Part shown: positions 46,745-49,389 of the stretch, one piece after another
Position numbering within the stretch: position 1 is the stretch's first letter
Layout of the letters: the number at the start of each line of letters is the position of its first letter
From: Polynucleobacter parvulilacunae
GTDB lineage: Bacteria; Pseudomonadota; Gammaproteobacteria; Burkholderiales; Burkholderiaceae
Length of the DNA stretch: 64,000 nt
Reading direction: 5' to 3'
Assembly: GCF_018881715.1 (NCBI RefSeq)
Contig: NZ_JACVPW010000013.1
Span: forward strand, 248,001-312,000
Notes under the pieces: model-generated
What the model saw: the letters and a program-made list of their open reading frames with translations, nothing else
Databases searched by the model: none
What the model was told of the DNA's origin: nothing
Position numbers and translations under genes: made by a program

Positions 46745-48160
46745 ATGCAGAACTTCATTAATAACCTGTCTGCAGTGTTAGAGAAAAAATATATTCTTAC
46801 CGCAGATGAGGATAAAGCACCCTTCTTGACCGATTGGCGAAAACGGTACACCGGAAAAGCACTTGCAGTGCTTCTGCCTGCTACCAGTGCTGAAGTTGCT
46901 GATATTGTGAAGTTGTGCTCTCAGCATCGGGTGGCGTTAGTTCCCCAAGGTGGTCATACTGGCTTCTGCGGGGGAGCTACTCCTGATACCAGCGGCAAGC
47001 AAATCATTCTCAATCTCAAGCGCATGAATCAGGTCCGAGAGATTGATATTGCCAATCAAACTATTACGCTTGAGGCTGGCTGCATCTTGCAGACCGTTCA
47101 AGAAAAAGCGGCGGAACAAGGATTTCTATTTCCGCTAAGTCTAGGTGCTGAAGGTAGCTGCATGATTGGTGGCAACTTAGCTACTAATGCAGGCGGCACG
47201 AATGTACTGCGCTACGGTAATGCGCGCGATCTCTGTTTGGGCCTAGAAGTAGTTACAGCCAAAGGCGAGATTTGGAATGGTATTAAAGGATTGCGCAAGG
47301 ATAATACGGGCTACGATTTGAGAGATTTGTTTGTAGGATCCGAGGGGACTTTAGGCATCATCACCTTGGCAGTAATGAAGTTGTATCCACTTCCCATTTC
47401 TCAATGGACTACTTTGGTTGCCTGCGCAACAGTTGCAGACTCCATTGCACTTCTCAATCTGTTTCAAAAACGGGCAACGTCTTTATTGACTGGTTTTGAA
47501 ATGATGACGCAAGAATCTTTGGATTTAAATGAAAAACACTTCCCTCAAATGGCAAATCCATTGCAAGGAAAACCTCCATTTACCGTACTCATTGAGTTGT
47601 CAGATCATGAGAGCGAAGACCACGTAAGACAACTCCTGGAAACTATTTTGGAAGAAGCTTTTGAATCCAAGTTGATTGGTGATGCGGTAATTGCTAGCAA
47701 TTTAAGTCAAGCAAATGCGTTTTGGCATATGCGTGAGCACATCACTTTGGCCCAAGCCGAGGAAGGTGCAAACTTAAAACACGACATCACCATCCCCCTT
47801 TCATCCCTGGATAGCTTTATCCAAGAAACGGATGCTTTGATGAGGGCTAACTATCCAGGCGTCAGAATCATCAATTTTGGACATTTGGGGGACGGAAACC
47901 TGCACTACAACATTGCCCCACCCTTAGATGCTGACCCCAAATCATTTAATGAGGCCAATGAAAAGCCGATACATGAGCTTGTTTATGCCCAGGTTGAGCG
48001 TTGTAATGGCTCAATTTCGGCTGAACATGGGGTAGGACAGCTCAAATTGGACAACCTAAGGGCTCATAAGGGCGAAGTAGCCCACGAGCTCATGATGACC
48101 TTAAAAAGGGCCTTAGACCCCCAAAATATCCTTAATCCCCACAAAGTCGTCTCGATTTAA
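46745..48160 (+). CDS. FAD-binding D-2-hydroxyacid dehydrogenase (GlcD/DLD type)
   Basis: A VAO-type flavoprotein oxidising D-2-hydroxy acids such as D-lactate or D-2-hydroxyglutarate. The FAD pyrophosphate loop is VPQGGHTGFCGGATPD, the second FAD segment is LGAEGSCMIGGNLATNAGG with GSEGTLGIIT, and the C-terminal domain carries the metal/substrate residues INFGHLGDGNLHYN and SISAEHGVGQLK. It is 471 aa. The substrate cannot be assigned from sequence alone. It is the last gene of the wrbA-DUF2069 unit, and no strong terminator separates it from the next promoter. Confidence 0.9.
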   Translation: MQNFINNLSAVLEKKYILTADEDKAPFLTDWRKRYTGKALAVLLPATSAEVADIVKLCSQHRVALVPQGGHTGFCGGATPDTSGKQIILNLKRMNQVREIDIANQTITLEAGCILQTVQEKAAEQGFLFPLSLGAEGSCMIGGNLATNAGGTNVLRYGNARDLCLGLEVVTAKGEIWNGIKGLRKDNTGYDLRDLFVGSEGTLGIITLAVMKLYPLPISQWTTLVACATVADSIALLNLFQKRATSLLTGFEMMTQESLDLNEKHFPQMANPLQGKPPFTVLIELSDHESEDHVRQLLETILEEAFESKLIGDAVIASNLSQANAFWHMREHITLAQAEEGANLKHDITIPLSSLDSFIQETDALMRANYPGVRIINFGHLGDGNLHYNIAPPLDADPKSFNEANEKPIHELVYAQVERCNGSISAEHGVGQLKLDNLRAHKGEVAHELMMTLKRALDPQNILNPHKVVSI

Positions 48161-48187
48161 AAAAATTAAGGGTTTTTTAATAAATAT

Positions 48188-48218
48188 TTTGTAATTTGTG
48201 TCATCTCGACCCCATTTA
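48188..48218 (+). promoter_or_regulatory. Candidate sigma32 (heat-shock) promoter of the 61-aa orphan gene
   Basis: The sequence is TTTGTAA, 15-nt spacer, CCCCATTTA. The -10 box is a perfect match to the sigma32 consensus CCCCATNTA, and the -35 agrees with CTTGAAA at five of seven positions. The predicted transcript start falls about 25 nt before the start codon. The call is by eye. Confidence 0.55.
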
Positions 48219-48249
48219 CAGGCGTTGTATGGTCATGGAGGTGACAAAT

Positions 48250-48435
48250 ATGTCAACAAGACTCAAACGTTGGGCCCGTGCAATTCAAGAGATCGACTTG
48301 TCCAAAAGGACGCCTGAGGTCGCGATTGGCTACTTAGATAGCAAATATCGTGACATTGCTTGGCGCTATATCCGCATTCTTGGCTTTGAGCGCACTATCA
48401 GCTTCATGGCTAGCAATAATTTTCACCCAGAGTGA
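48250..48435 (+). CDS. Small orphan protein, 61 aa, unknown function
   Basis: The ORF track begins at 48196, but the ATG at 48250 (MSTRLKRWARAIQEID) is preferred because it sits 7 nt after a strong ggaggtga ribosome binding site and because the predicted promoter overlaps the earlier codons. The protein is basic at the N-terminus and has a conserved-looking core (RTPEVAIGYLDSKYRDIAWRYIRILGFERT) rich in aromatic and hydrophobic residues, predicted mostly helical; it has no signal peptide. It does not match a family I know. Its own terminator follows directly, so it is a one-gene transcription unit. The codon use resembles its neighbours. Confidence 0.75.
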   Translation: MSTRLKRWARAIQEIDLSKRTPEVAIGYLDSKYRDIAWRYIRILGFERTISFMASNNFHPE

Positions 48436-48442
48436 TAGTTAA

Positions 48443-48476
48443 AACCCTAAATAATTGATTTATTTAGGGTTTTTTT
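48443..48476 (+). terminator. Rho-independent terminator of the 61-aa orphan gene
   Basis: aaccctaaataa-ttgat-ttatttagggtt is a perfect 12-bp stem followed by a T-run of about six. It starts 7 nt after the stop codon of the small gene and can also help end the converging hydrolase gene. Confidence 0.88.
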
Positions 48477-48495: not shown

Positions 48496-49389
48496 TTAGC
48501 CAAAGAATTTCTTGGCCTCTGCCAGCAGTAGTTCAGGGACCTCTTCGGGAATATAGTGCCCACTAGGAACGGCCATTCCTGAGACATCAAGGGCGACCTC
48601 TTTCCAGTCCTCAATTGGTTTAAAGCACTTATTTACTAGGCCATGCTCTCCCCATAGGACCTTTATGGGCATTTTCAGCCGCTTACCGGCAACACGATCC
48701 GCGCGATCGTGCATAAGATCAATAGTGGCCGCAGCACGATAGTCTTCACACATTGCATGCATGCTTTCAGAATTGCTAGCACCAGCTAAATATTCCGCCC
48801 ACCGTTCTGGAGTAAATATTCCGGTGCCAGCATGTCTACCCATATGATTTTTTAACCAATACTCTGGGTTGGCGCCAATCATTGTTTCTGGAACTGGCTC
48901 TGGCTGAATCAGGAAGAACCAATGCAAATATCCCTTGGCGAACTCCATTGTGGTGTTGTCATACATCTTTAGGGTTGGTGAAATATCCAAGACCATTAAA
49001 CGCAACACACCTTCAGGAAAGTCCATTGCTAAGCGATGAGAGACTCTTCCGCCCCTATCGTGACCAAGCAAGAAGAATTGATCAAACCCCAAACTCTTCA
49101 TCAACGCATGCTGATCTGCTGCCATGGATCTTTTTGAATATGAAGAGTGATCTGCTTTTCCATGCGGCTTTGAGGAGGCGCCATATCCTCGCAAATCCGC
49201 AGCAACAACCGTAAATTGTTTTGCTAACTCCGGAGCCACCATGCTCCAGATTGCTTTAGTTTGTGGAAACCCATGGAGCAAAAGTAAAGGAGGACCATTA
49301 CCGCCGATCAGGTAGGAGATCTCGATGGATCCATCTTCAGAGTCAGTGGTAAATTTTTTGGCTTCAAAGCCAGGGAAAGAAACAGACAT
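48496..49389 (-). CDS. Haloacetate (fluoroacetate) dehalogenase-like alpha/beta hydrolase
   Basis: A 297-aa hydrolase. The nucleophile is Asp at about 111 in LGHDRGGRVSHRLAMDFPE, accompanied by Arg112 and Arg115, which bind the carboxylate in fluoroacetate dehalogenase. The His156-Trp157 pair in YLHWFFLIQPEPVPETM is the halide pocket of that family, and EDYRAAATIDLMHDRAD and SGHYIPEEVPE (catalytic His) complete the pattern. It also has the HGFPQTKAIW oxyanion block. This is a closer match to fluoroacetate dehalogenases than to epoxide hydrolases. The natural substrate in this organism is unknown. Confidence 0.82.
   Translation of the reverse strand: MSVSFPGFEAKKFTTDSEDGSIEISYLIGGNGPPLLLLHGFPQTKAIWSMVAPELAKQFTVVAADLRGYGASSKPHGKADHSSYSKRSMAADQHALMKSLGFDQFFLLGHDRGGRVSHRLAMDFPEGVLRLMVLDISPTLKMYDNTTMEFAKGYLHWFFLIQPEPVPETMIGANPEYWLKNHMGRHAGTGIFTPERWAEYLAGASNSESMHAMCEDYRAAATIDLMHDRADRVAGKRLKMPIKVLWGEHGLVNKCFKPIEDWKEVALDVSGMAVPSGHYIPEEVPELLLAEAKKFFG

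Follow-up and report, generated by a model that had tools for sequence, protein, structure and literature searches.

A 61-codon gene of Polynucleobacter and its putative ECF-type promoter

The window, a 64 kb stretch of Polynucleobacter parvulilacunae DNA, contains a 61-codon gene (48250..48435, forward strand, ATG start; protein MSTRLKRWARAIQEIDLSKRTPEVAIGYLDSKYRDIAWRYIRILGFERTISFMASNNFHPE). Judging from comparison with its orthologues, this is probably a monocistronic gene for an apparently Polynucleobacter-restricted protein, with a promoter of the kind read by extracytoplasmic function (ECF) sigma factors. An earlier reading of the window from its letters alone (the sequence-only reading) had instead proposed a sigma32 heat-shock promoter.

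The gene, its distribution and its neighbourhood

The ORF is, virtually without doubt, a real gene. The 2.07 Mb genome holds a single copy of it. A match to the 61-aa protein was found in 133 of 186 Polynucleobacter genomes, of which 125 possess close orthologues (84-100% identical) and 8 further ones possess divergent homologues (~31-36% identical) at another locus; the gene is thus not peculiar to one strain. Among 32 distinct coding sequences the mean dN/dS is ~0.009, far from 1 (mean pS 0.50, mean pN 0.007), and almost all differences among the close orthologues fall in third codon positions. These values indicate that the ORF codes for protein and that purifying selection on it is very strong. 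The start codon at 48250 is supported by 1-nt leader indels in some relatives, which rule out in-frame upstream starts. The strong Shine-Dalgarno sequence (GGAGGTGA, 48237..48244, + strand) is conserved in most orthologues.

Downstream, a symmetrical intrinsic terminator with a 14-bp stem and a T-run (48441..48476, + strand; hairpin 48441-48473) lies between the convergent genes. The hairpin reaches -15.5 kcal/mol (z = -4.6). Of 99 distinct orthologues, 80 have a hairpin with T's after it, and compensatory changes (CCCTAAATA/TATTTAGGG, CCCCAGAT/ATCTGGGG) have kept the stem paired. Rfam gave only a sub-threshold match over it (NsiR1, 25.3 vs 39 bits). The sequence-only reading had described an independent 61-codon gene with its own signals, and the ORF, the ribosome-binding site and the terminator are all where it placed them; the terminator stem, which it had given as 12 bp, is 14 bp long.

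The upstream neighbour is a gene for an FAD-linked oxidase (46745-48160; PF01565/PF02913) and the convergent neighbour encodes an alpha/beta hydrolase (48496-49389; PF00561). This neighbourhood is kept in most relatives, where the small gene is often found immediately 3' of the FAD-linked oxidase gene. Some clades have no such oxidase there, and the small gene then comes after a 127-aa ORF. The divergent homologues lie close to genes resembling those for a periplasmic substrate-binding protein and a sulfurtransferase. In many relatives the small gene is followed by genes for a lysine-rich KKAPAKK-repeat small protein and a PPK2-like kinase, both absent at the corresponding place in the window. 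In one genome (G037) a deletion took the promoter, the Shine-Dalgarno sequence and the start codon, fusing the FAD-oxidase gene out of frame to the small gene; both look like pseudogenes.

Searches outside the genus agree with a restricted distribution. A single-sequence search of 399 genomes of the family returned only matches of E > 0.02, and a profile search of 399 genomes of the order gave no convincing match. Matches in the genome collection came from Polynucleobacter or from MAG contigs labelled Burkholderiaceae or beta proteobacterium, with no convincing homologue outside. One partial match (E = 0.002) was obtained in phages, and no convincing homologue of the protein was found in phages, plasmids or viral contigs.

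The conserved upstream block and its candidate sigma factor

When the upstream regions were aligned without any preset motif, the conserved features were a T-run with an A/T-rich tract, TTC-N-TGTCATCTC and GCGTTGTAT. In the window, the UP-element-like A/T-rich tract (48172..48197, + strand, including AAATATTTT at 48182-48190) lies upstream of a -35-like box, TGTCATC (48199..48205, + strand). Across 65 distinct upstream blocks its A/T character is conserved and its exact letters vary. The -10-like box GCGTT (48222..48226, + strand), of which CGTT (48223-48226) starts 18 nt past TGTCAT, is invariant in an alignment of 43 sequences. Five of these are from divergent homologues, and there is not a single gap between the two boxes in the whole alignment, though the intervening bases drift. 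The divergent homologues exhibit TGTTAAC as their -35 box, a related promoter core being kept despite the different locus.

TGTCAT-N18-CGTT is intact, with constant spacing and a drifting spacer sequence, in 122 of the 125 close orthologues; of the 124 that retain this region, 123 have TGTCAT itself intact. A strict pattern in which TGTCATC and GCGTT could be 16 to 18 nt apart was matched in 102 genomes, the distance being 16 nt in all the matches listed, and one-by-one inspection of the remaining 23 close orthologues recovered TGTCAT-N18-CGTT in 20. The three exceptions are G031 (GCGTT changed to ACACT), G036 (TGTCAT changed to TGTTAT) and G037, with its promoter and start deleted.

Because it consists of two short boxes a constant distance apart, the sequence between them being free to vary, the block reads as a sigma-factor promoter. 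It also has the general traits of ECF promoters, namely two conserved boxes, a constant spacing of 16-17 nt and a CGT-type -10. We are confident, short of certainty, that the conserved block, rather than the sigma32 site, is the promoter. From the promoter geometry, transcription is predicted to start at ~48233-48237.

The genome has few sigma factors; Pfam searches recognised three, one ECF and two others that size and score identify as RpoD and RpoH. Other weak Sigma70_r4_2 matches look like ordinary HTH regulators. The ECF gene (189 aa; G000:C13:359693-360259), whose best NCBIfam family is NF006550/PRK09047, is in divergent orientation to an acetolactate synthase-like gene and has two small ORFs downstream. 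We found nothing in the literature on a Polynucleobacter ECF regulon or on the NF006550/PRK09047 ECF family.

The family is present in 141 of 144 good Polynucleobacter genomes. In six genomes (G031-G036), which look like decaying symbionts, frameshifts or stops break the gene. Point mutations in the -35 or -10 box occur in two of the six and in no other orthologue (one-sided p ~0.002, uncorrected for kinship), and several of the six exhibit lesions or radical changes in the small ORF. The joint lesions would fit a link between the ECF and the small gene, in a suggestive way only; a fair alternative is that the promoter lesions of these genomes may reflect general decay. In G035 the ECF gene is badly broken, and both the promoter and the small ORF are intact.

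The ECF counts as a candidate partner by being the only one recognised in the genome, by its presence in 141 of 144 good genomes and by the paired lesions in two of the six. Counting against it are the intact promoter and ORF of G035, the occurrence of the ECF in genomes lacking the small gene, the ECF operon and the apparent want of further targets. The upstream region of the ECF operon is without the motif, giving no sign of ECF autoregulation, and the inspected extra matches to TGTCAT-N17/18-GCGTT lie inside coding sequence or have no plausible target, so that no second conserved target was seen. Sigma-factor scores diverge between the clades with and without the small gene, which phylogeny explains as easily as function. 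For the proposal that the PRK09047-type ECF reads the small-gene promoter, we would set the chances for and against as even.

Two of these observations, namely the only ECF being widespread in genomes without the small gene and G035 keeping its promoter without an intact ECF, also favour a different mechanism, in which TGTCATCTC and/or GCGTT would serve as an activator site and transcription would depend on sigma70 or another factor. Many orthologues, besides, read TTGTCA here, which is similar to the -35 box of sigma70 promoters. However, the orthologues have no TATAAT-like hexamer 16-18 nt past TGTCAT; what is invariant there is a GCGTT core like ECF -10 boxes, and a consensus scan gave no sigma70 site here, so that we regard this mechanism as unlikely.

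Within the ECF reading, the closest described architecture is that of ECF41-dependent promoters, TGTCACA-n16-CGTC (PMC3426412). Both -35 boxes begin with TGTCA, the -10 boxes are CGTT and CGTC with ~16-17 nt in between, and both systems apparently have one target transcript per genome. In contrast to ECF41 promoters, the -35 box here continues with TC rather than CA (TGTCATC, not TGTCACA), and the 189-aa ECF of the genome has NF006550/PRK09047 as its best NCBIfam family. The target is a 61-aa ORF for an orphan small protein, not of the COE type and not a carboxymuconolactone decarboxylase, oxidoreductase or epimerase. The likeness is one of architecture and does not turn the gene into a target of ECF41.

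RNA-switch and heat-shock readings of the same region

The -35 region also invites an RNA-level explanation, namely a thermometer or riboregulator on a transcript that begins further upstream, with UGUCAUCUC base-paired to the Shine-Dalgarno segment GAGGUGACA. Indeed TGTCATCTC (48199-48207) is complementary, with one G-U pair, to GAGGTGACA (48239-48247), the nine-pair complementarity is paired in 92.8% of cells against 39-63% for slid registers, and the predicted MFE structure is the hairpin that pairs the Shine-Dalgarno sequence. Yet its MFE z-score is only -1.1, no Rfam family was found, and the 9 pairs exhibit zero compensatory (two-sided) changes in 43 sequences, with a covariation score below the shuffled mean, unlike a covarying stem that sequesters the Shine-Dalgarno sequence. 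TGTCATC is unchanged alongside Shine-Dalgarno variants such as AGGAGACA or GGAGGTAGTA, and a hairpin loop needs no fixed distance to GCGTT. The covariation and variant results are evidence against a switch rather than proof. We consider such a switch quite improbable, and the complementarity is perhaps a coincidence.

The sigma32 promoter TTTGTAA-N15-CCCCATTTA fares worst, and it is very improbable that it drives the gene. Its letters are present in the window's strain, with a good match to the -10 consensus (CCCCATTTA, 48210..48218, + strand) and 5 of 7 matches at -35 (TTTGTAA, 48188..48194, + strand, 15 nt before CCCCATTTA), and promoters of this type do exist in the genome. But neither box is conserved in orthologues, in which TGTCAT-N18-CGTT is conserved instead. 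Among 112 distinct orthologous upstream blocks, CCCCAT is correctly placed in the window's sequence only, one other block having it displaced, and whole clades have other letters in place of TTTGTAA, which belongs to the A/T-rich tract. CCCCATTTA lies within the variable spacer and its presence was judged coincidental; such a string is expected about once per window (1 observed, 0.71 expected, and at least one in 47 of 100 shuffles). The evident sigma32 sites of the genome, those of dnaK (CTTGAAATCCCTTTTTTAGACCCCATTT) and grpE (CTTGAAATTGAATGAATTGACCCCATAT), genes named from their encoded proteins, exhibit the full CTTGAAA-N14-CCCCAT form, and differ from the proposed site in both spacing and -35 box. 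Nor was a conserved CTTGAAA-N13-17-CCCCATNT found upstream of the orthologues, as would be expected of a sigma32 regulon member. The case illustrates how misleading an exact match to CCCCATTTA in a single strain can be before orthologues have been aligned. Elsewhere in the genome, a sigma32-like site (CTTGTAA-N14-CCCCATAT, G000:C2:171713) precedes a gene for a lysine/alanine-rich (histone H1-like) protein by 113 nt.

The encoded protein and the proposed role

The 61-aa protein is basic (pI ~10, net charge ~+3.6), and its invariant family residues are M1, R4, L5, W8, A9, A25, L29, D30, R39, Y40, R42, G45, F52, M53, A54, S55, F58 and E61. The sequence-only reading recognised no family in it, in keeping with the absence of any family or sequence match in Pfam, NCBIfam, PHROGs, PADLOC or PDB. 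An AlphaFold2 model built from 31 sequences exhibits a compact four-helix fold (helices 2-14, 22-27, 31-44 and 46-54; pLDDT 86.5, pTM 0.72), for which Foldseek returned no structural match below E = 1.

NepR is a small protein of the regulatory/anti-sigma type, ~60 aa long. In size, helical content and a possible link to an ECF regulon our protein resembles NepR-like proteins, whereas it differs from them in the above lack of Pfam/NCBIfam and Foldseek matches, and its gene is not adjacent to the ECF gene. Its charge and the conserved R, W and Y residues prompt a tentative guess that it binds nucleic acid, RNA polymerase or the ribosome; as a small basic helical protein with invariant R4/W8, R39/Y40/R42/G45 and FMAS it might, in more general terms, bind nucleic acid or some component of the transcription or translation machinery.

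On the best reading of these data, an ECF holoenzyme would transcribe the gene alone, and the product would be a small stress protein, orphan and restricted to the genus. In response to some stress, RNA polymerase with an ECF sigma factor, most likely the NF006550/PRK09047 ECF, would recognise the -35 box TGTCATC and the -10 box CGTT, 17 nt apart, with the A/T-rich tract upstream, and would produce an mRNA of ~240 nt with a very short leader. A more far-reaching and quite unlikely extension is that the protein, of a new four-helix family, is the dedicated and near-exclusive output of the only Polynucleobacter ECF and acts on RNA polymerase, the ribosome or nucleic acid, either as a stress response of one gene or as a feedback regulator.

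As far as these comparisons can be taken, the heat-shock reading should yield to that of an ECF-type promoter, and the gene deserves experimental study. Polynucleobacter is widespread and abundant in fresh waters, and a single-gene unit whose dN/dS is close to 0.01 and whose ECF-type promoter hardly varies offers a good handle on the role of the lone ECF.
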